Below, piece after piece: positions 6,218 through 31,607 of a stretch of DNA of 41,231 nucleotides; the stretch's first letter is position 1; the number at the start of each line of letters is the position of its first letter. The notes under the pieces are model-generated. The model was not told where the DNA came from. It ran no database searches and saw nothing but the letters and a program-made list of their open reading frames with translations. The translations under genes and the position numbers were made by a program. The stretch comes from a virus. The stretch covers positions 1-41,231 of the IMG/VR virus record IMGVR_UViG_3300021963_004898, one strand, 5' to 3'.

Positions 6218-8088
6218 TATAGAAGAGCTACTCTAGTTTGGAAGTCTGCAAAGCTAGTTGAATCTGCAACGGTTGATTTAAATGTTGCAAGACTTAGTTC
6301 AGCCGCAGGTCCAGTTGCACCAATTCCGGAAGCACCTGTTAATCCTGTTGCACCATCAATACCGGCAACACCTGTAGCACCACTAGCACCTTGGAAACCA
6401 GAAGCACCATCTATACCTGTAGCACCAGTTAAACCGGTGGAACCTGTGGCTCCATCAATACCAGTAGCACCTTGTACACCAGTAGCTCCAGTTAAACCAG
6501 TGGAACCTGTGGCTCCATCAATACCAGTAGCACCAGTTAAACCTGCACCAGTAGCACCACCAACACCACTTGCACCTTGTACACCAGTAGCTCCAATTAA
6601 ACCAATATCACCTTTGTCACCAGTACGTTGGAATGTAAGGATAACGTTATCACCAGTAGTAGTGACATTACCTGATAGATAACTTACTGGAATTTTATAA
6701 TAACTTCCTGATTTAGTATGAGTCCCAGTGATTGCAAATATTGAATAAACTAGTGGGGAGGTCTTTTCAGCTATTGAAAAATGGCCTTTAACACTAGATG
6801 TTGAATCATCGATTGTTTCTAAAAAATTTGTTGCAATTAAACCATTAAAATCTGTCTCATTGATATACATAAATGTCGCGGTATAAAACGAAAGCACATT
6901 GAATTTAACATTACCTGCGCCCGGATCTGAGTCAGCAGTAGAAATTATATATTCATATTCTAACGCTGCAACACCAAAGTTACCTTGTTCACCTTGAATA
7001 CCAGTTGCACCTGCAACCGTTGAGTCTGCACCAGATGCACCAGCAACTCCAGTTGCACCAGTTAATCCTGTTGCACCACTTGCACCATCAATACCAGTGG
7101 CACCAGTTGCACCTTGTACACCAGTTGCACCACTTGCACCACTTGCACCACTTGCACCACTTGCACCAGCGATACCAGTTGCACCAACACCCGTAGCACC
7201 AGTTAATCCTGTGGAACCTGAAGCACCTTGAATACCTTGAGAACCTGTAGCACCAATACCGGTAGCACCAATACCAGAAGCTCCTCGAATACCAGTAGCT
7301 CCTGTTGCACCGAATGCACCATCATTACCTGGTATTCCGCTAGCACCGCGAATACCAGTGGCACCACTTGCACCAGCTATACCTGTAGCACCGGCGATTC
7401 CACTATTTCCTGTTTCACCTTGTATACCAGAAGCCCCGCGTATACCAGTTGCACCCGTAGCACCAACACCAGTTGCACCATTAATTCCAGTAGCACCCGT
7501 TAATCCTATTGCACCTGATGCACCTTGAATTCCTGTGGCACCAGCGATACCAGTTGCACCAACACCAGAAGCACCATTAACTCCAGTAGCACCACTTAAT
7601 CCTGTTGAACCTGAAGCACCAGTTATTCCTGTTGCACCAACACCGGTAGCACCAGTTAATCCTGTGGAACCTGAAGCACCTTGAACTCCGGAAGCTCCGC
7701 GTATGCCTGAAGCACCCGCCGTACCTGTAGCACCTGTGGCTCCAGCATATCCGTTAGTTCCTGCTGCTCCGGTTGCACCGACTTCTCCTTGAATACCTGT
7801 AGCACCACGAGTACTAGTACCGGTAGCTCCCGGTAATCCAGTAGAACCTGACGCTCCGCGAACACCTTGTGCTCCGCTAGCTCCAGTTAATCCAGTAGAA
7901 CCACTTGCACCTTGTGCACCAGTTGATCCACTTCCTGGTCCAGATGCTCCAACAGGACCAGTCGCTCCACTTGCAGAGGATGTATAGAGTTCTGTAAAGT
8001 TTTCGTTTACTTTAGTAAAAGCAACTCTTATAGCGTCACCTGTACGGTCGTTGCCTGTTGCCCCTACATTAATTGTTTGTTTTGCCAT
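6217..8088 (-). CDS. Collagen-like fibre protein inserted among the neck genes
   Basis: A 623-residue virion-type protein with long runs of Gly-X-Y triplets (mostly [12 protein letters not shown]) at about residues 39-365 and 490-590, flanking a non-collagen domain at about 366-490. The N-terminal 35 residues ([20 protein letters not shown] and onward to FTELY) match a head segment common in phage fibre proteins. The central domain, with [19 protein letters not shown] and [13 protein letters not shown], resembles a beta domain often found in phage collagen-like proteins. The C-terminus (about 591-623) is non-repetitive. It lies between gp14 and gp15, where T4 has no fibre gene, so a neck whisker or head-tail decoration is a reasonable guess. 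No cysteines are apparent. Confidence 0.82.
6300..7960 (-). repeat. Collagen-coding low-complexity DNA
   Basis: Degenerate nine-base periodicity (plus strand roughly ccagttgca / cctgtagca) encodes the Gly-X-Y triplets of the neck-region fibre gene, interrupted between about 6620 and 6990 by non-repetitive DNA for its globular domain. Near-identical units favour slippage and recombination. Confidence 0.8.
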
Positions 8089-8089
8089 T

Positions 8090-9226
8090 TTAAATTTCGT
8101 CCGATGTTATTATTGTTGAGTCTGCTGTCGCTGTAGTTGAATCTGCATATACGCCTAGTGTTGGCGCTACATAATATGTTGATAGTTCTCCGAATGGGTT
8201 ATTCTCATTAAAGACAATACCTTGTGCTTCTTCTTTAAATTTATTATTATCACCATATGAATCTTGTTTATCAAGGTTGCCGATAATAGCTGTAGCTGCG
8301 GCTAAAGCTCCACCTCCACCACTTAAGTATACTACAGGTGCTGAAGTATATCCTGAACCTGCATCAGTTACTAATATCTTCACTACTTCACTTGCGGTCA
8401 ATCCATTTCCAAGATATGCAGTAGCTGTAGCTCTGTAACCGAAGAATGCTAACCGTGCAGTACCGTTATCTATCTCACCTGATATATGTGTAGGACCATT
8501 AGCATCTGTTGTGCCAGCAATAGTGCAAATATATCTTCTACCAGCAAAGCATACTTGATCTCCAACTGCTATAGCTGTTGTCGCTACCCAATCTTCACCT
8601 AACTTAACTGTAGGAGCTGTAGTATAACCAACACCTTTATTAGTGATCTTGATCTCTGTTAAAGTACCGTTTGGAACTTTAGTATCATCAAAAGATTTAA
8701 GTGTCTCAAATACATCTATAGAAGAAGTGCCAGTAGTGATATGTTCTGATGAGTATTGGAATAACTCAACTTGTAATTTATAAACGTATAGTTTACCAGC
8801 TTGATAGAACGGATCTTGATGAGTAACAAACTTTATCTCAAACAAACCACCAGTTAGAGGGAAGAATAATAAGTCGCCCTCAGCTGGACGATTAGGTAAG
8901 ATAGATCTACCATGTTGTCCTACAAGTTGTTCCCATTTTCTTCGTGCTACTGTTAGCGTAGCGCTTTGTTCCATCATCAAACCAAACTTCTGAATGAATG
9001 CGCCTTGGCCTTCAAAGCCGTTCACCGTCTCAAGATACATCTCGATGCCATAAGCATGTTTAAATTGTGATAGACGATCTTCACCAAGGATCTCGTCTTT
9101 ACCAACTAAAGTGCGTGGTATATAATAGAAGTCTTGACCATAGATCGAGATAGATTCTACTATGATGTCTTCATATAATAACTGTTCTGAACGAACTCCG
9201 TTAGAGAAGTATACTGATCTAGCCAA
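8090..9226 (-). CDS. 14: Neck protein (T4 gp14-like) with beta-repeat insertion
   Basis: Head completion/neck protein. The core N-terminal 180 residues ([60 protein letters not shown]) and the C-terminal piece around [20 protein letters not shown] (326-345) resemble gp14. Between them (about residues 185-318) is an inserted segment with two copies of a motif, [15 protein letters not shown] (196-209) and [15 protein letters not shown] (287-301), as seen in phage structural beta domains. At 378 residues it is well above T4 gp14 (256). The start is TTG, with GGAG about eight bases upstream, overlapping the gp13 stop by eight bases. No ATG gives a plausible alternative, since conserved residues begin at once. 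Confidence 0.88.
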
Positions 9227-10232
9227 GGAAGAACTCCAATGGTGCAGACTTATTAAGCATCTCGTCTTCTAACTCTTTGATCTCTGTTATAGCTTCAGCA
9301 TATAACTTATCACCATCGATTGTTACACCACCTGGTAGTTGGATGCCTTGGAATTTCTTAATGTTAGTTGCCCATTGACGTTTAAACAGTGCTGTTACAT
9401 AGCGTCTAAACCATGGCTCGTTCCATACTTTACTAAATACTGTTGGATCCAGTGCTCTATAACATTCTACAAGGATGAAATCGCCCATAGCTAACGCTGC
9501 ATCCAAATTAACATCTAATGATAGTCTACCCATCATACGGTTAAATCTATATAACGGATAACCATTTAACTCTAGGTTAAGTAATGAGATGTGTGACATA
9601 ACTGTCTTATAGTAGATCAATGACGTTGAAGTCAAGTCGTATAAGTCGTTAAGTCTTAATTGATATTGTAAGTCGAATAAGTTCTTTGAGCTTGATGCTG
9701 CACTAAACGGCATGACTCGAGTGATACCATAGATGTAGTCAGGAATAGGGAAGTACTTAAGATCATATGTACCTAAAGTAGCTCTGTCTGCATGCACTAC
9801 TGCAGTAGCTCCATTGCTACCAGTAATAGTCTCGCCAGCAATAAATGCACCCGTCGTAGTAGCATTAAAGACATGATGCTGCTTTGTCTCTTCTGCTGCT
9901 ATAGTAACGTTCTTGCATATGATGATATTATTTGCAGCAGTCCTACCGTACTCTGTACATACTGAAGCCGTAGCGCCTGAGGTTGCACCAGTTATAGTAG
10001 TCCCTACTGGGAATGCATCTGAGTTTGTTCCAACGATCCTGATGGTTGAAGCTGTGATCTTTTGTTTGAGGTACATACGTTCTGCACCATCAAAGTGGTA
10101 TTGGTTCCAGTAATCAAGAGCCTCGTCGATACGTTCCTCTAATTGAGAGTCATCAACGTTGATCTCTACTACTGGTTCACCAAGGGCTCTTAAAGCGTAT
10201 TCTGTTAGGGTTGCTCTGCTTGTAACGGCCAT
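9219..10232 (-). CDS. 13: Neck protein (T4 gp13-like) with beta-repeat insertion
   Basis: Head completion protein that works with gp14 at the neck. The N-terminus MAVTSRATLTEYALRALGEP, then DDSQLEERIDEALDYWNQYH, and the core from KYFPIPDYIYGITRVMPF (about 159-176) to ALDPTVFSKVWNEPWFRRYV are typical gp13 sequence. Residues about 62-153 form an inserted Thr/Gly/Ala-rich stretch with two similar units, FPVGTTITGATSGATA (74-89) and FIAGETITGSNGATAVV (130-146). T4 gp13 is 309 residues and this is 337. A TATAAATA lies about 26 bases before the ATG, so gp13 starts a late transcript running through gp14, the collagen-like gene, gp15 and gp17. Confidence 0.9.
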   Translation of the reverse strand: MAVTSRATLTEYALRALGEPVVEINVDDSQLEERIDEALDYWNQYHFDGAERMYLKQKITASTIRIVGTNSDAFPVGTTITGATSGATASVCTEYGRTAANNIIICKNVTIAAEETKQHHVFNATTTGAFIAGETITGSNGATAVVHADRATLGTYDLKYFPIPDYIYGITRVMPFSAASSSKNLFDLQYQLRLNDLYDLTSTSLIYYKTVMSHISLLNLELNGYPLYRFNRMMGRLSLDVNLDAALAMGDFILVECYRALDPTVFSKVWNEPWFRRYVTALFKRQWATNIKKFQGIQLPGGVTIDGDKLYAEAITEIKELEDEMLNKSAPLEFFLG

Positions 10233-10257: not shown

Positions 10258-10265
10258 TATTTATA
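10258..10265 (-). promoter_or_regulatory. T4-type late promoter for gp13 and the neck/terminase genes
   Basis: Exact TATAAATA on the minus strand in the 51-base gap between the glycosyltransferase-methyltransferase gene and gp13, about 26 bases before the gp13 ATG. No terminator-like hairpin is visible in the gap. Confidence 0.78.
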
Positions 10266-10283: not shown

Positions 10284-11963
10284 CTATGTCTTCTTAAACA
10301 CCATCACGTTATTAACGAACCAACCCATATGGATACCTTTTCTCTCAAAGTTAATCAAGTCTTCTGTCAATCCAGGGTGATAGATTAGACCTTTTGCTAC
10401 AAACTTCTTGAGCCAATAATCTCTCTTACGGCAGTTGATATGACCTACTCCACCTTGACCAGGTTGAGCAGCTGTAAATATCATTGTACCACCAGGTTCG
10501 ATCGCGTCATATAAAGCATCTACTTCTTGGTCTGCATATGCAGGGTCGATGTGTTCTAATACTTCATAGCATGTTACTACTTCTGCAGTCCTCTTATTAT
10601 CAAAGATACTTTCCTTTGCAAGGTAGTCTTTACCTTCTACTCGGTCATCGATGTCGATACCAAATGCTGGTACTCCAGCTTTGATTAGTTCATCTACATA
10701 CATACCTGGACCACAACCAACGTCAAGCAATGATTTAGGGTCTATATTTTTCTTGATCCATTCTGCAATACGTGCTGCAGCAGGTCTCTCTTCGTCTTCG
10801 ATATAGTTATAATCGATTGGGTCTGCACGACCAGGATAATGTTTGACCGCATAATCCATATTAGAACGACCCGGATTCTCTTGATACCAACCGTTACCAG
10901 TATGGATATTAAGTACAGCTTGGAAGTATTCTTCATACATACCAGCTACTTTTTCAAGTGCAAAGTTTCTTAATGCCCAATCACGGCAGTCTTGTGGGTT
11001 GATACGATCGATGTTCTTAAGTGCCCATACAAACTCTTCCATAGTACGACAACGATAGCCTGTAATACCATGGATATTGTTTTCTGTGAATGAACCCCAA
11101 TCAGTGGTGATAGTAGGTGTACCAGAGAATAAGTTCTCAATCTGCACTCCGCCAAATGGTTCAACATACATAGAAGCGACCATAGAGACTTTAGCTTTAG
11201 ACATCAATTCTCTACGTTTCTCTACGTCAGCATAGCCGATGAATTCAACGTGTTTAGGAGTCTCTTTATATCCGCATGCTTCAAGACTGTTTTGGCCAGC
11301 GACTTTAAGTTTCATGCCTGCACGTTCAGTAGCTTGGATAGCAACGTGGATACCTTTACCTTCATAGACACGGCCTAAGAATAAGCAGTAGTCTTCTTTG
11401 GTTTCAGGAGCAAACGTGAAATCATCTGGATCAAAGTAATTAGGGATGACTACATCATAGAAGTTATTCTTACACATACCGACAGCTTCAAGACCATAGT
11501 ATGCATGCATGATAGCATATGATTCAAAGATCTTGTATTTTGCCCAATGACCACCAGCATAACCAATACCTGGTTCAACTACGATTAAGTCTGGATGTGC
11601 ATCACATACTGGACGAGTACCTGATCCCCAGAATGGAAGGATGAAGTCATTCTTTTGTTTACGTTTACCTACTTCTATGATAGCGTTCTTATAGAATGTT
11701 TGGTATGCATGATCACCTGTATCAAACTTAAAGAAGTTCTTACGCCAATCGTATGTACCATAAGCTATCTCGAGGTCTTTATTTGTAGTCACTGATACAT
11801 GTTCTGTACATTGTAGGTCAGAGTCTTCATGACCATAATGGATGACTGTATGACCTCGATCAGTCATCATCTTTGCAAACTTAACTACTTTTTGAGTGTA
11901 AGCACAAGCAACATATTCTTTACTTGATACTGTATGTGGTAACCCTAGGATATGAAATCTCAA
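10284..11963 (-). CDS. Fused GT-B glycosyltransferase and SAM methyltransferase
   Basis: A two-domain sugar-modifying enzyme of 559 residues. The N-terminal half looks like a GT4-type (GT-B) glycosyltransferase, with [16 protein letters not shown] (196-211) and the acid motif EPFGGVQIE (E268 and E276, the E-x7-E nucleotide-sugar motif), then [12 protein letters not shown]. The C-terminal part (about 395-559) is a class I methyltransferase with motif I LDVGCGPG (413-420), an acidic GIDIDD strand end (435-440) and [10 protein letters not shown] further on. The start is TTG with AAGGTG about nine bases upstream; the conserved strand [10 protein letters not shown] follows at once. It is the last gene of the sugar cassette. 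Acceptor and sugar are unknown. Confidence 0.85.
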
Positions 11964-11981
11964 TTTAATTCACCTTTCAAT

Positions 11982-12623
11982 TTATAATTTTTTAATTAAT
12001 GCTTTATATGCTAAAGTACCATGCATACCTTTTAACGCGACTACTTTTTCAGGCTTGTCCATAAAAAATTCTGTTGCAGCCTTTTCTACTCCCGTCCAAT
12101 ATTTATCATGACCATAATCGTCAATCAAAACAATGGCACCTGGAACTAATCTATCATATATTAATTTTAATGCATCTAGCGTGCTATCGTAAAGATCACC
12201 GTCTAAATGTGCAAATGATATCTTTTCTGGAAGATGTTCTGGAGTTAAGTCTCTGAACCACCCTTGTCGAATGTATGGCATCCTTATGCCAGACTTAGTA
12301 AAATTTTCTGAGAATTCGTGGATAGGCATCTTCATTTCACCGGGTACATTTTCTACAGATTGTGGTAAGCCATCAAAGCTATCAAAGACGTACAGAGTCT
12401 TATGAGATAAGAACGACATCAACTTAGCAGTATCACCTTTATAGCATCCAAACTCTACCATATCTCCAGGTAAATCTTGGGTCTCTAACACATAATGACA
12501 TACATGGATTACTCTTGAAAAGTCTTGCATACCGATGGCATTTTGTAATAGCTCGACTGCAAAGACGGAACTATTTAATTTATCTAGGTGAGCTTGCTGA
12601 TCATACTCAACGTCTCTCATCAT
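11982..12623 (-). CDS. TylF/MycF-type O-methyltransferase
   Basis: Probable metal-dependent sugar O-methyltransferase using SAM. The 213-residue protein has the family hallmarks: motif I DMVEFGCYKGDTA (54-66), the signature YVFDSFDGLP (78-87), and metal/catalytic acids at AHLDGDLYDSTLDAL (D141, D143) and IDDYGHD (D168, D169). TylF and MycF methylate deoxysugar hydroxyls in macrolide pathways, and relatives occur in surface-polysaccharide clusters. Its ATG overlaps the TGA of the upstream gene (ATGA at 12620-12623), so the two are translationally coupled. A second Met follows at once. In this cassette it probably methylates a sugar added by a neighbouring glycosyltransferase. Confidence 0.85.
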   Translation of the reverse strand: MMRDVEYDQQAHLDKLNSSVFAVELLQNAIGMQDFSRVIHVCHYVLETQDLPGDMVEFGCYKGDTAKLMSFLSHKTLYVFDSFDGLPQSVENVPGEMKMPIHEFSENFTKSGIRMPYIRQGWFRDLTPEHLPEKISFAHLDGDLYDSTLDALKLIYDRLVPGAIVLIDDYGHDKYWTGVEKAATEFFMDKPEKVVALKGMHGTLAYKALIKKL

Positions 12624-14221
12624 CTATTCCTTATAGTATTAAGGTAGTTCTTGATATCACCATTTGGCATCTCATAACGATTTACTAAATCTGGATTCAT
12701 CATCTCTACCATTGTAAATATTGCTTCTTCTGTACCGATAGTTCCTTTGTCTAGACATTGGTTAATCAGATTAAAGTATTTATCATTAAATTCAAAGATC
12801 TGGTCCAGCGATCCGCCAAATAGCGTCGCGCGACAAACGTATTCTGGTTTAGCTCCTACTATTTCTGTCATGACATCGATGTTACATCCATGGATCTCTG
12901 AGTTGGTTTGATATGGGTATGAAGATAAGAAGAACTTATCTTTAGGTAAGAATAAGAAGTTCCAAGTCTTGATAGGTTCTGTTACGCCAAAACTATTTGA
13001 CATGCCTGAATCTATCCAATAGAATCGTTTAGATCCCATAGGATTTGAGTTAGCAACTTGTGCAAGCAATGAGTTCTTGATTAATGTGAGAGGTATATAG
13101 TATGGGTTAGTTAACGCAGATCCTCTGATCCAACGAGACTGATCGATCCATCTATCACTTGATATAACTTCTTGGATCTTCTCAAATGGGGTCCTCGCTT
13201 GTAAGTCTTCAAGAGTTAATCCTCTTAATTCAATCCTGTTATTAGATGTAGCGACGCTTAGTTCTTTACGTCTTTGTCTGATATAGTCGTGATACTTAGG
13301 ATCAGCATAGACAACTAATGGGTTGCGAACTTCTAATAGGTAATCTAAGCCTTTGATGTAGTGCTCTTCGAAAGAACGATCTCCTCTACTGATATCAACA
13401 GCCATGGTAACGAGTGTTACGTCTGCTGGATATTCATAGATCCAATCCATCTCTCTGTAGTTGATGTAAGGTGCACGGCGATTTGCTAAAATTTCTTTTG
13501 GATAGAAATCATATGGAATCTTAGAATCGTCAGGACGTTTACCTTCCATCTTAGAACATTTATCTCCAAGGTGTCTTGAATATTCTCCGTTTAGGTATAC
13601 CCCTTTGAATCCTAGTGCTGTAAACTTACGATCGATGTTCCATTCATTATGCCACTTCTCTACACGACCTAACATAATTAAGTCATCTCTGCGTCGTAAG
13701 TTAGGAGAACCTACCCAGCAATGCCAAGCAACATGGCCGTCAGTTATCTTCCATGGTCTTTTCCAATAGAACATATCATCAACGAGACCTTTATGATATG
13801 AGTCAATTCCTTGGAACTCGAAAGTACGCCATGATGTATCGACTACGCCGACTTCTCTGTATTTTTGTAGGATTGCTTTTGATTGGTTGAGATAACCAGG
13901 TCTTGTGAATTCCCAGTCGTCTTCTAGGTAGAATATGTATTCGGTATCGCAGTAGGATACCATGAAGTCCATGGCCCACCATTGTGAACGATTTCTTGGG
14001 AAACAGATGACATCGGCGATATGACCGTATTCTTCGACTAGAGTTTCAAAAACTCCAGGTTCTGCAGAGTCATCCACGATCACCATCTTGGTAACGTAGT
14101 CTTGTGTATCAAAGAATGATTGGAGTGTCTTGGCTAAGACGTCAAGTCTATTGCAAGATAGGACGAACGTGGTTGTATCTGAATCTGGTTGATCAACAGT
14201 GTGAAACTTCACTTGTGACAT
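12620..14221 (-). CDS. GT2-type glycosyltransferase fused to HtrL/YibB-like domain
   Basis: A 533-residue protein with two parts. Residues about 15-250 resemble a GT-A/family 2 glycosyltransferase: TTFVLSCNRLDVLAKTLQSF, the strand VIVDDS (48-52) and the metal-binding acid cluster YLEDDWEF (E100-D102). Residues about 265-533 resemble the HtrL/YibB/WlaTC family found in LPS and capsule loci: VTLVTMAVDISRGDR, FYWIDSGMSNSFG, ATLFGGSLDQIFEFNDKY and KGTIGTEEAIFTMV. The ATG is downstream of a TATAAATA (55 bases away), so it starts a late transcript with the TylF-like gene and probably the GT-MT fusion. The sugar it transfers is unknown. Confidence 0.83.
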   Translation of the reverse strand: MSQVKFHTVDQPDSDTTTFVLSCNRLDVLAKTLQSFFDTQDYVTKMVIVDDSAEPGVFETLVEEYGHIADVICFPRNRSQWWAMDFMVSYCDTEYIFYLEDDWEFTRPGYLNQSKAILQKYREVGVVDTSWRTFEFQGIDSYHKGLVDDMFYWKRPWKITDGHVAWHCWVGSPNLRRRDDLIMLGRVEKWHNEWNIDRKFTALGFKGVYLNGEYSRHLGDKCSKMEGKRPDDSKIPYDFYPKEILANRRAPYINYREMDWIYEYPADVTLVTMAVDISRGDRSFEEHYIKGLDYLLEVRNPLVVYADPKYHDYIRQRRKELSVATSNNRIELRGLTLEDLQARTPFEKIQEVISSDRWIDQSRWIRGSALTNPYYIPLTLIKNSLLAQVANSNPMGSKRFYWIDSGMSNSFGVTEPIKTWNFLFLPKDKFFLSSYPYQTNSEIHGCNIDVMTEIVGAKPEYVCRATLFGGSLDQIFEFNDKYFNLINQCLDKGTIGTEEAIFTMVEMMNPDLVNRYEMPNGDIKNYLNTIRNR

Positions 14222-14275
14222 AGTTATTCCTCAATTATTATATAATTATAACACAATTTATAATTAATGTTTAAT

Positions 14276-14283
14276 TATTTATA
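14276..14283 (-). promoter_or_regulatory. T4-type late promoter for the downstream sugar genes
   Basis: Exact TATAAATA on the minus strand, abutting the stop codon of the upstream glycosyltransferase (14284) and about 55 bases before the ATG at 14221. The leader between is almost pure A and T. Confidence 0.68.
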
Positions 14284-15099
14284 TTAATCAATAATTGCAT
14301 AATCTTCCCACCATTTTTGCCAATCAATGTAAGGGTCTTTTTGTGGTTCAAATTGCATATGTAACGCGAGACTTGGAATAGGACTAAATCTCATCGCGCC
14401 TCTTTCTATCCATATTTTAGCTATTGTAGATGCTTCATCAACATTTTCTTGACCAGCGGAATAATCAGGATTATACTTAGTAGCTAAGATTTCAAATAAA
14501 TTCCAATTATTTTTGACAATATGCGGACTTAAAAATAAAGTATTTGTAGTCAATAATCCAGTTTTCCAATGTCTATTAGATCCATGAGCTATTATGCTAG
14601 TCCGTGGAGGTCTATAATCATCTGGAATATCATAAGGATATAATATAATATCCCGCCCAGATAATTTAGTAAATAGATCCCATGTATCAATCATCTCTTG
14701 TAAACAAGATTGATCATGTAAAAAATCGTCTTCGACAGAATATACTAAATCAGCTTTCGAGTCTCTACATGCTTCAAATTGTTTAAGAGCCGAATAATTA
14801 AAACTATATCTTAGATTATGATCATCTCCTAAATGAACAATTTGATATGGCCATTTAGATTTATTAAATATTTTTTTTAGCTCAACTATAAATTCATCAG
14901 TAGAATGATCATCTAATATTTTAAAATTAATATCATGATTAATAACAGCATTTGCTGAATTGATAAGTGATGTCACACATCCAAGAGCAAGAGTTCTTTT
15001 ATCTTTATGGCAATATCTAGGCTCAATTTCCATATCTGTCCTACTAGTGTTATGGATATTTGTTTTGTCATGAGTCCTTAATATTATCTCTATCTTCAT
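14284..15099 (-). CDS. GT-A type glycosyltransferase
   Basis: A 271-residue single-domain enzyme. MKIEIILRTHDKTN starts the first strand; KILDDHSTDEF (about 60-70) and VYSVEDDFLHD (about 120-130) look like the nucleotide-binding and metal-binding acid sites of GT-A folds. Its C-terminal block PSLALHMQFEPQKDPYIDWQ plus KWWEDY closely parallels the end of the glycosyltransferase half of the next gene (PSLAIHFQTEHEKDPYIQWE plus DWWGKH). The two are therefore tandem paralogues, and only the neighbour carries an added methyltransferase domain. The ATG overlaps the neighbour's TGA (ATGA, 15096-15099). DNA here is noticeably more AT-rich than in the genes to the left. Confidence 0.75.
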   Translation of the reverse strand: MKIEIILRTHDKTNIHNTSRTDMEIEPRYCHKDKRTLALGCVTSLINSANAVINHDINFKILDDHSTDEFIVELKKIFNKSKWPYQIVHLGDDHNLRYSFNYSALKQFEACRDSKADLVYSVEDDFLHDQSCLQEMIDTWDLFTKLSGRDIILYPYDIPDDYRPPRTSIIAHGSNRHWKTGLLTTNTLFLSPHIVKNNWNLFEILATKYNPDYSAGQENVDEASTIAKIWIERGAMRFSPIPSLALHMQFEPQKDPYIDWQKWWEDYAIID

Positions 15100-16517
15100 G
15101 CTATAATTAATTCTTGGTCAGAAAGAACATCTGATGGGGATTCACCTTTAAAAATGATGGCAACAACTTCACCATTATTTGAACGAACGTATGATTTAAT
15201 ATTAAAATGGTTAAGTAATTGAATCATAGATTTTTGCGTGAATCCAGTTTTGTGACACATACCCTCACCCCATGATTCCACAAATCCTCTATGACCATAA
15301 ATCATATCAATTACTGATACAGGACCAGCTGAAGATTCATAAACTGTATCTAATAAACCATCTTCAATGAGATTCGCAATAGAACCTAAATCTGGAACCC
15401 GAATAATTCCGTATCCATCAGGTTTTAATACTCGCAATATATTATTAAATACCTTGGGTAAATCATGCCAATAATTATGTTCAACTACATGAGAGGCCCA
15501 AACGGCATCAACTGATTGGTTAGGTACTTTATTTAAATCAACTATAGATGTAATTAAATCGGCTGTATCATTTTCATGAGCATCAATCCGAATTTCTGTC
15601 CAGCCAACAAAATGTTTAGACTGTGATTCAAGTTTAGTTTTACCACATCCGATATTCAAGACAATCTTTTTATCTGTTTCAAATAGGTTTTGATTGTCTT
15701 TTCTTGAAAAACTGGTAACATCATCGCCGTGTTTTCCCCACCAATCTTCCCACTGAATATATGGATCTTTTTCATGCTCTGTTTGAAAATGAATAGCTAG
15801 AGATGGTAATGGTGACATTACCACATACTCTCTTTCTTGCCATAATCTATTAATCGATTCATCTTCCAGTTTTGGATTGTGTGCATGGTCACTACAAATC
15901 TTGTCAAACAGGTCCCATTCGTTCACCAAGATACTATGGTGTGTCATAAAGGTACAAGGTACTTGATATGTTTGTCTCCAGTGGCGATCTGGCCCTTGAA
16001 CAATCCGAACAGGTATAATATTTTTATCCCAATACCGATATGGATCATTATATGGTAATAAAGAAAGGGGTTTTTCAAATTTAGGCTGAAATTTTTCCCA
16101 TTGCCGAATCAATTGATAAAAACATTCTTCATTAAAAAGGTAGTCATCTTGCGCTTGAAAAACTAAATCTTTGCCTTCATCTCGCAGGTTTTCATAACAT
16201 TCTCTTAATGAAGCCATCAAGCCACAACCTTCAATATGTTTAAGACTTGTTGAAAAATTAGTTAAAGAAAGGTTATCTTTTAATATTTGTATACCTTCTT
16301 CGCTCGAATGATCATCAAATACGTTTAATTTAAACTTCCAAGCAGGTAACTTTTCTTGAGCATAATTGATAGATTTAATTAAAGAACGAGTACAACGTTT
16401 TAATACTTCTGTTTTATCGTCGCATCCATATCGTTTGAATTTAAATCCGTCATAAGGCTTATAAGTATCTTGTGAATTAGATTTATTATGTGTTTGTAAA
16501 GCAATCAAAAATTCCAT
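15096..16517 (-). CDS. Fused GT-A glycosyltransferase and SAM methyltransferase
   Basis: A 473-residue fusion. Residues 1-270 are a GT-A-like domain paralogous to the next gene downstream, with LNVFDDHSSEEG and LVFQAQDDYLFNEE as the likely acid motifs. Residues about 285-450 are a class I methyltransferase: motif I KIVLNIGCGKTKL (286-298), IRIDAHEN and the VDAVWASHVVEH segment typical of Methyltransf_11-like enzymes, followed by LRVLKPDGYGIIRVPD. It starts at ATG 16517 after a 45-base gap from the FkbM gene. Such fusions suggest that adding a sugar and methylating it are coupled. Sugar and acceptor are unknown. Confidence 0.8.
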   Translation of the reverse strand: MEFLIALQTHNKSNSQDTYKPYDGFKFKRYGCDDKTEVLKRCTRSLIKSINYAQEKLPAWKFKLNVFDDHSSEEGIQILKDNLSLTNFSTSLKHIEGCGLMASLRECYENLRDEGKDLVFQAQDDYLFNEECFYQLIRQWEKFQPKFEKPLSLLPYNDPYRYWDKNIIPVRIVQGPDRHWRQTYQVPCTFMTHHSILVNEWDLFDKICSDHAHNPKLEDESINRLWQEREYVVMSPLPSLAIHFQTEHEKDPYIQWEDWWGKHGDDVTSFSRKDNQNLFETDKKIVLNIGCGKTKLESQSKHFVGWTEIRIDAHENDTADLITSIVDLNKVPNQSVDAVWASHVVEHNYWHDLPKVFNNILRVLKPDGYGIIRVPDLGSIANLIEDGLLDTVYESSAGPVSVIDMIYGHRGFVESWGEGMCHKTGFTQKSMIQLLNHFNIKSYVRSNNGEVVAIIFKGESPSDVLSDQELIIA

Positions 16518-16562
16518 ATTTTATTCAAATTTAGTTAGTGCTAAATTATCCTTTATTTAAAA

Positions 16563-17297
16563 TTAAACCGTGCATAATAAATTATTTTCAACTATTTCAT
16601 ACTTATAATTAAAATTATTTAAATAAGATTTTATTTCGCCAATAATTGTTTTTTTACTATTATGGTGCTCAATAAAAATTATTGGTTTATATTTTTGAAT
16701 TGTATTCTTAGCTCCAATTAAAACATCCATATCCATACCTTCGACATCGATTTTTATTAAATCTATTTTTTCTATTTCATAATATTCTATAAACCAATCT
16801 AAAGTATTTATTTGAACAATAATTTCATTTTTATTTTTTTCTTTAATTGCATCATCGATTAAACTAAAAGTGCCAAAATCATTTTTTATGAAATAATTTG
16901 GTTCATGAAATTTAATTTTGGTGTTGTCTTTACCTATTGCTAAATTATATGTGTAAACATTATATAAATTATTAATTGCTATATTACCACAAAGTATTTG
17001 AAAAACTGATCTTTGTGGTTCAAAGCAATAAATTTTTCCATTAGGAAAAGCTTTTGATAACCACGTTGTAAACGTTCCTATATTAGATCCTATATCAAAA
17101 ATTATAGGATTTTCAATATGACAAATTTTTTCATAACATTTTGAAGCTTCAATGGTACTTGTATTACCATGGTCTAATAAAAATTGTCCGTGACCCACTT
17201 GTTCATGATTACAATCAAAACGATTTATAATCATCAATCCGTGGTCACAACTTATTAATACATTTTGATAAACTTTGTCATTTACATTAAATACCAT
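16563..17297 (-). CDS. FkbM-family methyltransferase
   Basis: SAM-dependent O-methyltransferase of the FkbM type, 244 residues. Motif I is IIFDIGSNIGTFTTW (65-79); KIYCFEPQRSVFQIL follows (88-102); and the FkbM signature IDLIKIDVEGMDMDVLIGAK lies at about 178-197. FkbM relatives methylate sugars or polyketides and are common in phage and bacterial surface-glycan loci. The gene is strikingly AT-rich with long A and T runs, and the protein is rich in Ile, Asn and Lys, which suggests a different source from the left part of the cassette. It starts one base after the stop of the upstream methyltransferase. Confidence 0.87.
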   Translation of the reverse strand: MVFNVNDKVYQNVLISCDHGLMIINRFDCNHEQVGHGQFLLDHGNTSTIEASKCYEKICHIENPIIFDIGSNIGTFTTWLSKAFPNGKIYCFEPQRSVFQILCGNIAINNLYNVYTYNLAIGKDNTKIKFHEPNYFIKNDFGTFSLIDDAIKEKNKNEIIVQINTLDWFIEYYEIEKIDLIKIDVEGMDMDVLIGAKNTIQKYKPIIFIEHHNSKKTIIGEIKSYLNNFNYKYEIVENNLLCTV

Positions 17298-17298
17298 T

Positions 17299-17901
17299 TT
17301 AGTCTTTCAATTTAACAAATGCGGTCTGAAAAGAATCTGGTAAAGGTACTAATTCTATTTTGTGCCAATGCGACTGTATAAACATTTCAATGCCCATTCT
17401 CGGTGAAAGTTGTACAGGAGCGCTTCCATGTTCATCAATAAGTTTCCATCCTATAGAATCATCACACAACATTACACCACCTACTGGTAATAATCTCCAA
17501 GATAATATCATATCTTCAAGCACTGCAGCAGATGAGTGGTCACCATCAACAAAAATAAATTCAGCTTTTTCTTTTTGTTGAATTAACTCAACTAAACCTT
17601 CATAACTATATTTGTTGATGTAAGATACATTCCCAACACACTTGCTCAAATTATATTCAAATGTCCTTTTAATTGTTTTAAAATCAAAATTTGGATTATC
17701 ATTTAGTGTTGTGTGTGGATCAATGGCATATATTTTAAATTTATCATTGTGAATTCTTGCAAACTCCGAAACCCAAAATGTGGTTGTTCCTTCAAAACAA
17801 CCAATTTCTATCATCGTATTTGGAACACCATATTTTTTGAATATAAATTCAATATTAGTTCTTGTTCTTTTTTCACCCATATCAACTGTGGAAATATACA
17901 T
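17299..17901 (-). CDS. Class I methyltransferase (Methyltransf_24/CmcI-like)
   Basis: A 200-residue SAM-dependent methyltransferase when started at the ATG at 17901. A longer frame to 17982 exists, but it overlaps the upstream methyltransferase by 80 bases and adds nothing family-like; the 17901 ATG sits just after that gene's stop at 17903. Motif I is TMIEIGCFEGTTTFW (about 28-42), followed by IYAIDPHT, the acid-rich EFIFVDGDHSSAAVLEDM and VGGVMLCDDS, characteristic of the Methyltransf_24/cephalosporin-hydroxylase-like group. The His/Asp in VDGDH may bind metal. Its substrate is unknown; the context suggests a sugar. Confidence 0.82.
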   Translation of the reverse strand: MYISTVDMGEKRTRTNIEFIFKKYGVPNTMIEIGCFEGTTTFWVSEFARIHNDKFKIYAIDPHTTLNDNPNFDFKTIKRTFEYNLSKCVGNVSYINKYSYEGLVELIQQKEKAEFIFVDGDHSSAAVLEDMILSWRLLPVGGVMLCDDSIGWKLIDEHGSAPVQLSPRMGIEMFIQSHWHKIELVPLPDSFQTAFVKLKD

Positions 17902-17902
17902 A

Positions 17903-18511
17903 TCAATTATTCTTTTTATACCAATCTGAAAATCTTCCTGGTTTATGCACTCTAATGAAAATATTAACACTCCGACACACATTCGACATAGTATTTAAAT
18001 TAATATCAAGTTGTTGATGCCCTAATAATCCTTCTTTTTGTTGGTTTATCCAATATTCAAGTACATCATATGTTGTGTCATAAATTTCCAAATCCACATC
18101 ATGATATAAACCAAAAGTACTATCACTTATTTTTTTTGCAATAGATTCAAAATTTACTTTTTGATCAAACATTTTAAAAGTTTTGGCAGTCAACGTTCTA
18201 ACATGAGTGTAATCGTCCCAAAACAAATCGCATCGATGATGCGGAACATTTATAAACCATTCAGCTTGATCAGAGCTTACTCGATACATCTCTTTAATAA
18301 TATTAGTAAATACTTTTGGATCTTGTCCTAAATGTTCTAGGATATTGTTGGCAGTAATTTTTTCGAAGAAATTATCTTCGTATGGCCAAGGAGTTTTTTC
18401 AAAATCTAATACTTGATCAGGATTACATTTGGATTCTACATCTACATTCCAATGATCATTTAATTTATTAAATCCACATCCCATGTTTAATTTTTTATTT
18501 TCTGGTATCAT
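17903..18511 (-). CDS. Class I SAM methyltransferase
   Basis: A 202-residue methyltransferase. I place the start at the ATG at 18511 (MIPENKKLNMGCGFNK), which has a strong AAAGGGGA site about seven bases upstream; the longer frame to 18547 would overlap the sulfotransferase gene. Motif I is KLNMGCGFNKL, then WNVDVES and an ITANNILEHLGQDPKVF segment in the position of the Methyltransf_11 'xxVLEHL' motif. A late part, AEWFINVPHHRCDLF, matches the 'fxVPHxxs' strand common to phage and bacterial methyltransferases of this type. The target is unknown. Confidence 0.8.
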   Translation of the reverse strand: MIPENKKLNMGCGFNKLNDHWNVDVESKCNPDQVLDFEKTPWPYEDNFFEKITANNILEHLGQDPKVFTNIIKEMYRVSSDQAEWFINVPHHRCDLFWDDYTHVRTLTAKTFKMFDQKVNFESIAKKISDSTFGLYHDVDLEIYDTTYDVLEYWINQQKEGLLGHQQLDINLNTMSNVCRSVNIFIRVHKPGRFSDWYKKNN

Positions 18512-18528
18512 AATATATCCCCTTTTTA

Positions 18529-19284
18529 TTAAATCCAAGCGTCCCAAAATATTTCACGATTATATTGATCATACAAATCAAGACCAAGATATTCGACACA
18601 ATTAACGGTGTCTTTTTTTAATTCATTTCTTGTGCCCATATTAGGTCCAGTAATATTTTTAAAATCATGTTCATAAGATGGCAACTCAAAAAAGTCATAG
18701 ATACGCTTTGTTTGACTTTTTGGATTACCACAAAATCTACTATAATCAACAAATAAACATCTATCCAAAAAACCCATTGTAATACTATCTAAAAGATTTC
18801 TATGTGAAGTTCCTAAAATGCCATCTGGCCCTGCATAATAATAAGCTCGAGCCGCAATTGAATTTGTATCTCTTAGATTTTGATCAGCGTTCGATAGACT
18901 AAGAGGGTTTTCTCTCCTACTTTTTTCAAACGAAGTCAGAATTTCTGCTGGATTTCTAACACAAACCAATACTTTAATTTGTTTTTGTAGAACAGATTCT
19001 AAAGCTCCAAAAGATGGAGTCCAATTAATATTACGATCAAAAATAATTGGGCGATCATTATTAGCATAGAAACCATCAACAATACCGCTTAAAACGTTTT
19101 TCTTAATTTCAATATCTGAATCGTTACTTAAATTTTTCCATCCAAGATGCACAGCATTAAATACGGATTCTAATGATCCATTAACCTCACCACGTATTTT
19201 TGGATTTTGATTCAGTATATTTGTTATAACTGAAGAGCCTGAACGGGGTAGTCCAGTAATAAAATAAATGTTATCATGTTTCAT
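18529..19284 (-). CDS. Sulfotransferase
   Basis: Probable PAPS-dependent sulfotransferase of 251 residues. The 5'-phosphosulfate loop is FITGLPRSGSSVI (8-20), with the P-loop-like G-x-P-R-S-G-S-S. The 3'-phosphate site is VLVCVRNPAEILTSFEKSRR (105-124), with R110 and S118 in the expected places. This fits Sulfotransfer-type enzymes that sulfate sugars or proteins in bacteria. A TATAAATA lies about 22 bases before the ATG, so the gene heads a late transcript leading into the methyltransferases. Sulfation of fibre glycans or tyrosines is possible but unproven. Sulfotransferases are unusual in phage late regions. Confidence 0.85.
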   Translation of the reverse strand: MKHDNIYFITGLPRSGSSVITNILNQNPKIRGEVNGSLESVFNAVHLGWKNLSNDSDIEIKKNVLSGIVDGFYANNDRPIIFDRNINWTPSFGALESVLQKQIKVLVCVRNPAEILTSFEKSRRENPLSLSNADQNLRDTNSIAARAYYYAGPDGILGTSHRNLLDSITMGFLDRCLFVDYSRFCGNPKSQTKRIYDFFELPSYEHDFKNITGPNMGTRNELKKDTVNCVEYLGLDLYDQYNREIFWDAWI

Positions 19285-19305
19285 TCAAATCACCTTTTAA
19301 AATTT

Positions 19306-19313
19306 TATTTATA
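19306..19313 (-). promoter_or_regulatory. T4-type late promoter for the sulfotransferase
   Basis: Exact TATAAATA on the minus strand in the 49-base gap between the TPR-glycosyltransferase stop and the sulfotransferase ATG, about 22 bases before the start, with an AAGGTGA site between. Confidence 0.75.
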
Positions 19314-19333
19314 TTATAAATTAATATTAAAAA

Positions 19334-20383
19334 TCAAGCCTGTTTGAGAACTTGTTTTGGAAATAATGCCATTAAATCTTTTTTGATGGCATCAAATGGT
19401 TCGTTCCACCGACCAAATGTTTTTTGACGATAGATTGTTGTGGTATCTTGGTACCAAGGACTATGTTTATCACCACATGCCCATACATGATAAGGTAAAA
19501 GTGGTACAACTACCCATGTTGGTTTACCCATAGCGGAAGCAATGTGTGCTATGCTGGTACAAGATGTAATAACCAAATCTAAGTTTTCAATACAAGCCAC
19601 TGTATCTTCCCAAGAAATGATTAAATTTTTTAAATCTGTAATTTCTTCCGATAATTCTCTAGTATCATTATCTCTTTGTAAACTGTAAAATTGTATATGA
19701 TCAAAATCTTTATGTAAATCAATTAAATTTTCTGGTGGAAAAAGACGGAACTGCTGGTGCTCAAACTTAGGATTTCCACTCCAACGTATACCAATTTTTG
19801 GTTTATCTCCAGCATCTTGCAATATATTTTTCCAAACTTCAACACTTTCATTTAAAGCTGAAATATACGGTTTATTTGGAAGGTCGTCAAAAGAATGTCC
19901 AAAAAGCCAGCTACAACTAAATCCTGGTATCCAAAAATCATGATATGTACTTGATACTTCATTTAGAGTAATACACCTTTCAACGCCAACAATTCTAGAA
20001 AATAATGAGTGTAATGTACGATCACAACATAAAATACATTTGCCACCTCTTTTCCAAACTTCTGTTGCAAATCTAACAGAAATAATGTTATCACCATATC
20101 CAGCTTCAAGATTAATAATTACAGTTTTTCCTTTTAAATCGCTTTGGTCCCAAATTGGTTTTGTTGTATTGATTTTAGGAGATCCATAAACATTAAGTGC
20201 TCGACCATATTCAAGGCATTGAAATCCTTCTTGTAATTTTTTTTGATTGATGAGAAACCATCCACGATTAAATTTACTTCGTGGATCTTTAGGATCTAAA
20301 ACTTCTAATTGTTCTGCTATTTTCCAAGCTTCTTCAAATCTACCGCGAATCATTAAGTTTAGTTGTTGATCAATTAAATGCAT
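19334..20383 (-). CDS. TPR-containing GT-B glycosyltransferase (GT9/GT41-like)
   Basis: A 349-residue protein. The first 65 residues look like one or two TPR helices (GRFEEAWKIAEQLEVLDPKD, then FNRGWFLINQKKLQEGFQCL). The rest resembles the glycosyltransferase part of TPR-O-GlcNAc-transferase-like and GT9 proteins: VIINLEAGYGDNIISVRF (88-105), KIGIRWSGNPKFEHQQFRLF (about 196-215) and LVITSCTSIAHIASAMGKPT (about 275-294), where the Ser/Thr/His contact the nucleotide sugar. Members of this type can glycosylate proteins on Ser/Thr, which fits the many Thr/Ser-rich collagen-like fibres nearby. It has its own late promoter about 26 bases before the ATG. Confidence 0.8.
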   Translation of the reverse strand: MHLIDQQLNLMIRGRFEEAWKIAEQLEVLDPKDPRSKFNRGWFLINQKKLQEGFQCLEYGRALNVYGSPKINTTKPIWDQSDLKGKTVIINLEAGYGDNIISVRFATEVWKRGGKCILCCDRTLHSLFSRIVGVERCITLNEVSSTYHDFWIPGFSCSWLFGHSFDDLPNKPYISALNESVEVWKNILQDAGDKPKIGIRWSGNPKFEHQQFRLFPPENLIDLHKDFDHIQFYSLQRDNDTRELSEEITDLKNLIISWEDTVACIENLDLVITSCTSIAHIASAMGKPTWVVVPLLPYHVWACGDKHSPWYQDTTTIYRQKTFGRWNEPFDAIKKDLMALFPKQVLKQA

Positions 20384-20408: not shown

Positions 20409-20416
20409 TATTTATA
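20409..20416 (-). promoter_or_regulatory. T4-type late promoter for the TPR-glycosyltransferase
   Basis: Exact TATAAATA on the minus strand in the 70-base gap before the TPR-glycosyltransferase, about 26 bases before its ATG, the same spacing as for gp13 and gp19. Confidence 0.77.
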
Positions 20417-20453: not shown

Positions 20454-21410
20454 TTAAAACGTAATAGCTACACCATGAACACCACCAACTGCTACAGCAG
20501 TCCATGAACTAGTTCCTATTTGTACTGGTGAAGATTTACTAACGTTAGTACCATCACCTAGTTGGCCTGTATTATTATTCCCCCATGCAAATAAAGCACC
20601 ATCGGATCGAATAGCATACACTTGGTTAAACCCACTACTCACAGAAGTCCATGAGCTGGTTCCTACTTGCACAGGTGAAGATTTACTAACGTTAGTACCA
20701 TCACCTAAAGGATTTCCGCCACCATTGAAGGTTATATTTTGACCCCATGCAAATAGAGCACCACCAGATCGAATAGCGTGACTCCAATTACCAGTGCTGG
20801 AGCCAGAAACTCGAGCTAACGTCCATGAACTAGTTCCTACTTGTACTGGTGAAGATTTATCAATGGTAGTACCGTCACCTAGTTGGCCACTATTGTTGCG
20901 ACCCCATGAAAATAGAGCTCCACCGGATCGAATGGCAAGAGTATGACCCGCTCCACTAGTACTCACAGAAGTCCATGAGCTGGTTCCTACTTGTACTGGT
21001 GAAGATTTACTAATGGTAGTACCATCACCTAGTTGACCAAGAGTATTACTATTACCCCATGAAAATAGAGCTCCATCTGATCGAATGGCCATCCAGTGGT
21101 TTCCTGTTCCAGTATAAAGTGGCTTCGTACTGATCGCAGTCCATGAGCTGGTTCCTACTTGTACTGGTGAGGCTGAAGTAGCTGGAAGTCCAGCGCCTGT
21201 AAGACCTGTATTTCCCCATACAAACATGGCTCCATCTGATCGAATGGCCATAGCGTTCGACCAGCCAATTTGTATTGCAGTCCAACTTTTTATTTCAGTA
21301 TTACCAAGAGATGTTCCTAGTTGGCCAAAGGAATTAGCTCCCCATGTATATAAAAATTTCTTACTTGTGGGAGCTGCAGCTTTTGAAAAAAATTGTTCTA
21401 TGAATAACAT
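20454..21410 (-). CDS. RCC1-repeat beta-propeller protein, putative adhesin
   Basis: A 318-residue protein made almost wholly of RCC1-like repeats. About six units carry the pattern WGxNxxGQLGDGTxxxKSSPVQ-VGTSSW-T-x-AIRSDGALF. The first (WGANSFGQLGTSLGN) begins at about residue 23 after the short N-terminal segment MLFIEQFFSKAAAPTSKKF, and the last ends at the C-terminus (VAVGGVHGVAITF). RCC1 repeats fold into a beta-propeller, usually seven blades, so the propeller here may be closed with a partial blade or by oligomerisation. Several repeats are nearly identical in DNA, implying recent duplication. Its place beside fibre genes suggests a binding head at a fibre tip, but no enzyme motif is visible. 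Confidence 0.85.
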   Translation of the reverse strand: MLFIEQFFSKAAAPTSKKFLYTWGANSFGQLGTSLGNTEIKSWTAIQIGWSNAMAIRSDGAMFVWGNTGLTGAGLPATSASPVQVGTSSWTAISTKPLYTGTGNHWMAIRSDGALFSWGNSNTLGQLGDGTTISKSSPVQVGTSSWTSVSTSGAGHTLAIRSGGALFSWGRNNSGQLGDGTTIDKSSPVQVGTSSWTLARVSGSSTGNWSHAIRSGGALFAWGQNITFNGGGNPLGDGTNVSKSSPVQVGTSSWTSVSSGFNQVYAIRSDGALFAWGNNNTGQLGDGTNVSKSSPVQIGTSSWTAVAVGGVHGVAITF

Positions 21411-21418: not shown

Positions 21419-21913
21419 CTATACTGGTTCCAATAATGGCCATCTAACTTGATTTATATCAGTGATATCATTATTAAAATATACTTCTGTAATATCTCTA
21501 AGAGCTTGACGATAAACTATCCATTTGTTTTTTGTTTCTTCATCGAATGAGTTTTGGACATCATCCAGTTGTGTCCAATCAGAATCAATTAATTTTTTAT
21601 TTCTTTCATTCCTTAGCGTTTCCATAAATTGTTGTTTTTGTAAAACAGCATCTACAACTACTATTTCTTTTGCAGTCAAAATAGGAATTTCTAAAACTTG
21701 ATCATTTTCAAATTTATATTCATTATCATTTATAAAATAGTTTACATCATCATATGAAATTTCTTGTTTTGTTACAGGATACCATCCTAAACTCTTTAAA
21801 AATGGTAGATCATTTGCAGATAAATCTAATCCGCTAATGTTTCTCCAATTTCTAGGCAACACATCATAACGACCTGTAACCTCATTGTTTTCCACGGTAG
21901 CCCAATTTGCCAT
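21419..21913 (-). CDS. Tail fibre assembly/chaperone-like protein
   Basis: A 164-residue protein, probably related to phage tail-assembly chaperone proteins (the Phage_tail_APC type). The N-terminus MANWATVENNEVTGRYDVLP with PFLKSLGWYPV resembles the opening 'xWAxVxNGxVxxxxxxLPxxW' of those proteins. The C-terminal half (ETLRNERNKKLIDSDWTQLD, KWIVYRQALRDI, WPLLEP) matches the 'lRxxRnxLLxxsDWTqlpDsp...WxxYRQaLRDi...VxWPxxP' layout of the family. The ATG has AGGAG about seven bases upstream. It sits between the RCC1 protein and a small fibre protein, where a dedicated chaperone makes sense. The function is inferred from similarity of pattern. Confidence 0.75.
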   Translation of the reverse strand: MANWATVENNEVTGRYDVLPRNWRNISGLDLSANDLPFLKSLGWYPVTKQEISYDDVNYFINDNEYKFENDQVLEIPILTAKEIVVVDAVLQKQQFMETLRNERNKKLIDSDWTQLDDVQNSFDEETKNKWIVYRQALRDITEVYFNNDITDINQVRWPLLEPV

Positions 21914-31202: not shown

Positions 31203-31607
31203 TTAAACATCTATCATAAACTCCTTTATAAAATACTTCTTGACATCAGGAACCATTCCTTTAGTTTGATCAAACTTCCATCCGCCTATATAACTTAATA
31301 TTTGATTATATGTGATAATGTCTTCATCATGTGTTACGAAATATGGGTCATTGCCAAATAGTAAATCTATATCATTTAAGTAGTCTACAGGATTTCCTCC
31401 AAACTCTTCAGAAAGCCATCTAGCATAACATATAGCAACCATATAACTTTTAGATGGATAGATCCAACCAATGTCTTTTTCGGTAAAATACCGAACAGCA
31501 TCTGTCACTACATTATCAGTGATCTCTATATTCTTATCATTTAAGTCATCATCATGGACAATGTTTAGTCTATGATAGAGCTCTTGTCTTATCTTCCAAT
31601 CTTCCAT
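31203..31607 (-). CDS. Unknown protein at the end of the radical-SAM operon
   Basis: A 134-residue protein if begun at the ATG at 31607 (MEDWKIRQELYHRLN); a TTG at 31622 with AAAGGA just upstream is an alternative that adds five residues. It is acidic (NIVHDDDLNDKNIEITDN), has a hydrophobic/aromatic segment SYMVAICYARWLSEEFGG, and ends VPDVKKYFIKEFMIDV. No catalytic motif or cysteine pair is visible. Its 5' end overlaps the 3' end of the radical-SAM gene upstream, so the two are probably made together; a small partner or substrate-presenting protein is one possibility, but I do not recognise the family. Confidence 0.72.
   Translation of the reverse strand: MEDWKIRQELYHRLNIVHDDDLNDKNIEITDNVVTDAVRYFTEKDIGWIYPSKSYMVAICYARWLSEEFGGNPVDYLNDIDLLFGNDPYFVTHDEDIITYNQILSYIGGWKFDQTKGMVPDVKKYFIKEFMIDV

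Follow-up and report, generated by a model that had tools for sequence, protein, structure and literature searches.

RCC1-linked glycosyltransferase, methyltransferase and sulfotransferase genes of a T4-like freshwater phage as a probable adhesin-decoration module

Positions 10284–20383 of the IMG/VR virus record IMGVR_UViG_3300021963_004898 (41,231 bases, the whole of which is called the window) are occupied by ten adjoining, co-directional open reading frames (ORFs), designated A to J, between the tail-fibre genes and a neck gene of a T4-like freshwater phage. We propose, with a probability of about 0.62, that D–J form an adhesin-decoration module travelling with the gene of an RCC1-repeat tail protein, and that a glycan is attached to this adhesin, methylated and sulfated by their products. 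The proposal draws on gene order, domains, fold, late promoter boxes, co-occurrence and gene fusions, which were all observed. A sequence-only reading of the same DNA had described a cassette of glycosyltransferase, methyltransferase and sulfotransferase genes in a phage late region, and this description holds, as ten minus-strand ORFs fill the interval. The RCC1 gene at 20454–21410 lies just beyond the coordinates of that reading. All window features given below are on the minus strand.

The proposed adhesin glycosyltransferase is J (19334–20383), a protein with tetratricopeptide repeats (TPR) and a GT9-like GT-B domain. Its AlphaFold model, based on 40 sequences (predicted local distance difference test score, pLDDT, 92.3), consists of TPR-like N-terminal helices followed by the GT-B domain. 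From sequence, J was the hardest protein of the cassette to assign. Searched against Pfam (E ≤ 0.01), J gave a weak TPR match alone and the GT9 profile was unmatched. Since a phmmer search of J against PDB sequences (E ≤ 1) returned no glycosyltransferase, fold comparison with VIA was used. Among solved structures, GT9 heptosyltransferases come closest, with WaaF (1psw) aligned at Z 17.7 and a root-mean-square deviation (rmsd) of 3.2 over 243 residues. The corresponding values are Z 17.5, rmsd 3.1 and 248 residues for 3tov, Z 16.2, rmsd 3.2 and 231 residues for WaaC (2h1f), and Z 15.9, rmsd 2.9 and 243 residues for TibC (4rap_D). Residues E93, G95, G97, D98, R213, T261, T276, H280 and W301 are invariant in 40/40 rows of the alignment. 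The proposed substrate, the RCC1-repeat tail protein, matches PF00415 with 133 bits in four stretches, and its gene adjoins both J and the gene of a Tfa-like tail fibre assembly protein (21419–21913; phrog_4912, E = 1e-11). RCC1-repeat phage proteins (phrog_4219, phrog_7220 and phrog_16766) are filed by PHROGs under "DNA, RNA and nucleotide metabolism", yet the gene here stands among tail-fibre genes.

The linkage of J to RCC1 was evaluated in loci selected by neck genes, by J and by RCC1; dereplicated counts omit near-identical J, RCC1 or gp13. Among neck-gene loci with at least 8 kb upstream (25 of 80), RCC1 and J were both present in 7, both absent in 18, and in no case present singly. After dereplication at 97% of gp13, 18 loci remained (both in 4, neither in 14, one alone in 0; p = 3e-4). 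With a 4-kb upstream limit, a single J-only locus appeared (L008), and this locus begins inside J. In the J-selected set, drawn from loci fetched with several queries including J and the sulfotransferase, 36 of 44 dereplicated J genes had RCC1 no more than 700 nt upstream, mostly at 17–124 nt. The remaining eight comprise five second J copies in a cluster and one J each in L221, L111 and L222. The 50 RCC1-selected loci contained J in 36 cases and no J in 4, and 10 were not judgeable. Dereplication left 37 (J in 24, no J in 4), of which the 9 with RCC1 less than 3 kb from the locus end were set aside, giving 28 informative loci. Three of those without J (L347, L348 and L350) have more than 6 kb downstream of RCC1 and possibly encode unmodified or differently modified adhesins.

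A similar pattern was observed in 79 loci from bacterial assemblies. Among the closest 14, RCC1 immediately preceded J in 8 and had another place in the locus in 3, while none of the 65 more distant loci contained RCC1. Two contigs in Bacteroidetes and Nomurabacteria metagenome-assembled genomes (L223 and L224) carry RCC1–J modules together with phage neck or tail-fibre genes, and are therefore probably misbinned phage DNA. The phage collection yielded J in 5 records representing 4 distinct phages and RCC1 in 7 records; BUCT-ZZ01, S-SRM01 and AG-345-E08 were on both lists. Within one open-access library, an RCC1 and glycosyltransferase pair of phage tails was named in none of the titles and abstract starts listed, and there were no hits for cyanophage lipopolysaccharide (LPS) biosynthesis with a glycosyltransferase and a sulfotransferase, for phage ADP-heptose tail-fibre glycosylation or for glycosylated tail fibres with a phage-encoded glycosyltransferase. 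One hit (PMC12906663) was a false lead, as RCC1 denotes strain names in its available text.

Gene fusions tie the same enzymes together. Fusions of J with the sulfotransferase, in both domain orders, were seen in 17 of 24 dereplicated RCC1 loci and also in bacterial assemblies. A fusion of J with the methyltransferase H occurs in BUCT-ZZ01, L007 and L009, with the H part 38–45% identical (45% in BUCT-ZZ01). BUCT-ZZ01 is a cultured phage with the laboratory cyanobacterium Synechococcus elongatus PCC 7942 as its recorded host, and its gene order is tail fibre, small ORF (Tfa cluster), BNR/RCC1 protein and J–H fusion. No further annotated sugar gene was found in the 21 kb of BUCT-ZZ01 that were read. 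A lone glycosyltransferase–methyltransferase gene is hard to fit into a polysaccharide pathway and easy to fit as a modifier of its neighbour.

The sequence-only reading had treated the interval as a single 10-kb cassette, which is not supported: it is two modules, A and C (with B) on one side and D–J on the other. The GC content is 0.37–0.40 in A–C, like that of the neck genes, and 0.23–0.34 in D–J. Of 51 dereplicated loci, 20 have A close to gp13 and 19 have it close to C, often without RCC1. J, I, H, F and G, which are half of the cassette, track RCC1 across many phages and move with it between backbones. Specifically, the block RCC1-J-I-H-(G)-F recurs in phages with TerL 45–52% identical to that of the window and enzymes 49–86% identical. 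In L082, J, I, H, G and F are 71, 59, 81, 86 and 69% identical to the window proteins and stand beside RCC1, with TerL at 45%. L007 has TerL at 97% and gp13 at 94%, yet J, H, G and F at the same site are 49, 38, 45 and 31% identical. These identities therefore indicate that the block moves between phage backbones. Loci with gp13 at least 90% identical have at least three contents (C and A; sulfotransferase and APS kinase; RCC1-J-F-G), and because such near-identical gp13 loci differ in content, the cassette site is regarded as a swap point. A and C (with B) would constitute another module next to the neck gene, exchanged on its own, whose target is probably tail-associated too.

The enzyme inventory largely agrees with the sequence-only reading. 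That reading had counted six methyltransferase domains and one sulfotransferase, and Pfam, motifs and homologues of H within fusions bear this out (A, B, E, F, G and H; I). It had also counted six glycosyltransferase domains, two of them in the gene at 12620. Taking Pfam and structure together, five are well supported (A, the N-terminal half of C, D, the N-terminal half of E, and J), and the total reaches six only if the HtrL_YibB domain of C, which carries the Pfam label "unknown function" and which we presume to be a glycosyltransferase, is counted. The sulfotransferase I (18529–19284) belongs to the type dependent on 3'-phosphoadenosine 5'-phosphosulfate (PAPS), with PF13469 at 48.4 bits (cut-off 27), PF00685 at 47.0 bits (cut-off 22) and the motifs FITGLPRSGSS at residue 8 and RNPAEILTS at 110, which we take to be the 5'-PSB and 3'-PB motifs. 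H (17903–18547), an S-adenosylmethionine (SAM) methyltransferase, had no Pfam match at E ≤ 0.01, and a Methyltransf_11 match fell below the cut-off. Its assignment is based on an LNMGCG motif and homology to relatives fused to J, and the homologue within the L007 fusion exceeds the PF08241 cut-off. G (17299–17982) is a Methyltransf_24 methyltransferase (PF13578, E = 3e-16) and F (16563–17297) an FkbM-family methyltransferase (PF05050, E = 8e-25). At 37 dereplicated J loci, I was present in 34, H in 32 and F in 22.

E (15096–16517) combines a GT-A glycosyltransferase (residues 1–262) with a Methyltransf_11 domain (PF08241 above cut-off). In its predicted structure the N-terminal half is confident and the methyltransferase half is poor (pLDDT mostly below 50); the former has a GT-A fold (VIA against 1foa, Z 16.1, rmsd 3.0, 192 aligned). 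D (14284–15099) is a GT-A-type glycosyltransferase with an EDD motif, 31% identical to E, and scores below the cut-off against the GT2 profile PF00535 (18.0 bits; cut-off 23.3). In the other module, C (12620–14221) is a fusion of GT2 and HtrL_YibB (PF00535 and PF09612 above cut-off) with an EDD motif, and B (11982–12623) a TylF-type O-methyltransferase (PF05711, E = 4e-26). A (10284–11963; 559 residues) fuses a GT4 domain to a methyltransferase (PF00534 and PF13489 above cut-off), with EX7E at residues 268–276 and LDVGCG presumably being the characteristic motifs of these two domains. The N-terminal half of A is 72–75% identical to a glycosyltransferase of S-CAM7 and ACG-2014f that adjoins a 2-oxoglutarate (2OG)-Fe(II) oxygenase and tail genes. 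A hydropathy scan of A–J found no membrane-spanning stretch (19-residue maximum, 1.36).

The octamer TATAAATA, which we take to be the T4 late box, occurs 11 times in the window, always on the coding strand, where 6.0 copies are expected over both strands. Eight of the 11 are in intergenic DNA, which makes up 1.8% of the window (binomial p = 1.6e-12). The earlier count of at least three late promoters is matched by three boxes in the cassette, at 14276–14283 (54 nt before C), 19306–19313 (21 nt before the start codon of I) and 20409–20416 (25 nt before that of J), although boxes before J and I are rare in relatives. Outside the cassette, a box at 10258–10265 precedes gp13. The tail tube and gp13 boxes each stand at 25 nt, and the spacings at J and I are alike.

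Genes that could supply activated sugar and sulfate were found in relatives. Of 221 loci scanned, 56 contain ORFs resembling adenosine 5'-phosphosulfate (APS) kinase, 22 contain HldE-like genes and 20 contain epimerases. APS kinase (PF01583) is above cut-off in L031 and L127, and HldE (rfaE_dom_II) in L149 with 182.1 bits (cut-off 181.5). In three loci (L127, 11848–12723; L083, 12777–13634; L087, 12163–13011) the APS-kinase-like domain is joined to a C-terminal part with GRWQPWHxGH. This part is possibly a nucleotidyltransferase and could perform the second step of sulfate activation.

Two characterized glycosyltransferases offer the nearest parallels to J, which would at most work like them. 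TibC heptosylates a repeat adhesin whose gene lies beside its own (PMC4358343). Like TibC and AAH, bacterial autotransporter heptosyltransferases (BAHT) for the adhesins TibA and AIDA-I, J has a GT9-like GT-B fold and its gene is beside that of a repeat-rich adhesin; an ADP-heptose donor is plausible, given HldE/HldD-like genes in relatives. Unlike in the BAHT family, residues 3–62 of J are helices (TPR) and there is no N-terminal beta-barrel, J is paired with a phage tail protein, and a sulfotransferase and methyltransferases are added. J and TibC are 12% identical by structural alignment, while BAHT members are described in the available text as generally more than 50% homologous in sequence to TibC/AAH (PMC4358343). 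D98 of J, invariant in 40/40 rows, is a candidate for the counterpart of the catalytic Asp of TibC (D110). FlmG, the flagellin O-glycosyltransferase of Caulobacter, is a precedent for TPR-guided cytoplasmic glycosylation (PMC7591256). J resembles it in having a TPR N-domain, a GT-B C-domain and no membrane segment, and in being, as we propose, dedicated to one assembled protein. The likeness is one of architecture, with RCC1 in place of flagellin and a presumed heptose in place of pseudaminic acid; no sulfotransferase partner of FlmG is described in the available text of PMC7591256.

The LPS or capsule clusters of cyanophages (P-SSM2 and S-SSM7) are similar in that T4-like phages carry several glycosyltransferases and sugar-nucleotide genes. 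These clusters adjoin hli03/phoH and tRNAs according to the accessible part of PMC3037559, whereas D–J are between tail fibre and neck, after RCC1. J, moreover, was found in just 4 distinct phages in that collection. No sugar-nucleotide synthesis gene was identified in the window ORFs scanned, and some relatives carry HldE/HldD-like genes. In mycobacteriophages and chloroviruses, virus-encoded glycosyltransferases and methyltransferases act on virion proteins; compared with these systems, sulfation and a dedicated pair of TPR glycosyltransferase and adhesin would be particular to the present case. Gtr-type serotype conversion uses a membrane flippase and a membrane glycosyltransferase, unlike A–J with their hydropathy profiles.

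From these comparisons we infer the substrate, the sugar, the order of steps and the purpose of D–J as follows. Late in infection, J would recognise the RCC1 protein, probably by its TPR, and transfer a sugar, most likely heptose from an ADP-activated donor, onto hydroxyl groups of the RCC1 repeats. H would O-methylate the product, joined in the window phage by F, G and the methyltransferase domain of E; I would sulfate it, using PAPS, and the glycan may be lengthened by D and E. The cassette would thereby both glycosylate and sulfate virions, which may alter how the tail tip adsorbs, how well it is shielded or how stable it is. A serine preceding the RCC1-repeat tryptophan (5/5 in the window) follows the clade with close J.

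Several findings weigh against D–J as an adhesin-decoration module. J is without any Pfam glycosyltransferase match, and PHROGs places RCC1 in DNA metabolism, not in the tail. J lacks an adjacent RCC1 in L111 (RCC1 far downstream), L222 (none) and L221 (1170 nt away), and 4 of the 28 informative dereplicated RCC1 loci are without J (L314, L347, L348 and L350); L314, counted here as J-less, has RCC1 sizes and spacing as in L316, where J sits further upstream. The serine before tryptophan is missing in L306 and L308, which have J, and present in L348, which does not; because of these counterexamples it is not claimed as an acceptor motif. In relatives, a box was found ahead of 5 of 53 J, 6 of 39 I, 0 of 47 RCC1 and 18 of 27 gp13 ORFs. 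Since so few relatives have one before J or I, promoters of their own for these two genes are treated as a non-conserved feature, and the candidate of conserved ones was dropped. As for donors, the scanned window ORFs yielded no HldE/HldD or APS kinase, many relatives are without them, HldE domain II was found in just 3 of 8 larger records searched, and the epimerases have HldD (TIGR02197) as their top match with a score under the curated cut-off. The donor in the window phage is therefore presumed.

A competing account (ALTERNATIVES) is that a host surface polysaccharide is altered late in infection, for superinfection exclusion or progeny release. Jumbo-cyanophage clusters of glycosyltransferases, PfkB kinases, nucleotidyltransferases, cupins and epimerases are interpreted as host-surface remodelling in the accessible part of PMC7824862, and the relatives analysed here carry the same kinds of sugar genes. 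LPS-core heptosyltransferases are among the GT9-fold enzymes. Even the RCC1 link, which also counts against our proposal in this respect, could arise if adhesin and receptor modification were inherited as a specificity pair, and this possibility of joint inheritance leaves the account some weight. However, BUCT-ZZ01 retains the J–H fusion alone beside RCC1, A–J include no predicted membrane-spanning protein, the enzymes track RCC1 and not the phage backbone, and the boxes in this window point to late timing; we consider remodelling of the host surface unlikely. The sequence-only reading had left the choice between a virion glycan and a host-surface change open. Judged from gene content, the lack of predicted membrane-spanning proteins and BUCT-ZZ01, the virion option appears favoured, with the RCC1 tail protein as its likely target, and the host option less so.

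The virion might also be modified mainly on another structural protein, for example the collagen-like tail fibres encoded at 21.9–30.8 kb, with A and C as their enzymes. The cyanophage homologue of A stands between a 2OG-Fe(II) oxygenase gene and tail genes, one of which is annotated as a collagen triple helix repeat protein, and the window has both fibres with collagen repeats and such an oxygenase. Nevertheless, the commonest neighbours of A in relatives are gp13 and C and not a fibre, and J and I track RCC1, which makes this alternative quite improbable. Strong differences in content among relatives with near-identical neck genes would suit decayed or stuffer DNA, or small-molecule synthesis with no effect on virion or surface, and "stuffer DNA" has been raised for cyanophage LPS genes (PMC3037559, available text). 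Such a reading is at odds with ORFs that are all open, J motif residues invariant in 40/40 rows, repeated fusions and a stable RCC1–J order, and we regard it as very improbable.

The remainder of the window is typical of a T4-like phage, with genes for TerL, the portal, the tail tube, the sheath and its stabiliser, and the neck. The TerL protein shares 50.8% identity with its counterpart in Methylophilales phage Melnitz and 49.7% with that of Synechococcus phage S-H9-1. In Melnitz, the annotated tail fibres directly adjoin the neck genes without any cassette like A–J. A megablast search of positions 1–24000 against phage records gave a sole match of 81 bp in S-SM1 and no close DNA relative. 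The downstream border of the cassette is the neck protein gp13 (head-tail adaptor Ad2; 9219–10232; phrog_211, E = 1.5e-37), and a collagen-like tail-fibre gene at 6217–8088, variable in position among relatives, lies between it and the sheath stabiliser gene. A second cluster of modifying enzymes at 31570–35679, between tail-fibre blocks, contains two radical SAM genes by Pfam (31570 and 32492), a weak radical SAM ORF (33556) and the 2OG-Fe(II) oxygenase (34554). A SPASM radical SAM gene at 38073–39116 is followed by a gene at 37481–38053 whose product has the extreme C-terminus CHASCHSNCHGSRGRR. Of 80 loci, 76 keep a nearly invariant CH-repeat tail of the type CHxSCHxxCHxxRxRR downstream of the SPASM enzyme, as do the four records of cultured jumbo phages that were examined (SURPRISE13, Atu_ph07, pPa_SNUABM_DT01 and Phosso). 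The pair at 37481–39116 appears to be a peptide-modifying system with a late phage protein as its target.

Glycosyltransferase clusters of aquatic T4-like phages have so far been read, with the target undefined, as host-surface remodelling or stuffer DNA, as far as the accessible parts of PMC7824862 and PMC3037559 go. Here a glycosyltransferase is tied to one named tail gene, so that the question becomes directly testable in the cultured phage BUCT-ZZ01. Tentatively, and with the odds somewhat against so broad a claim, RCC1 adhesin, TPR-heptosyltransferase, sulfotransferase and methyltransferases may constitute a widespread transferable kit that tunes tail-tip adsorption through sulfated, methylated heptose glycans, with some phages bringing their own PAPS and ADP-heptose supply and part of the "LPS genes" of aquatic T4-like phages serving virion decoration. 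If decoration of the RCC1 adhesin is correct, sulfation would extend the range of virion chemistry known for phages, and the behaviour of an adhesin could change by enzyme swap as well as by sequence.

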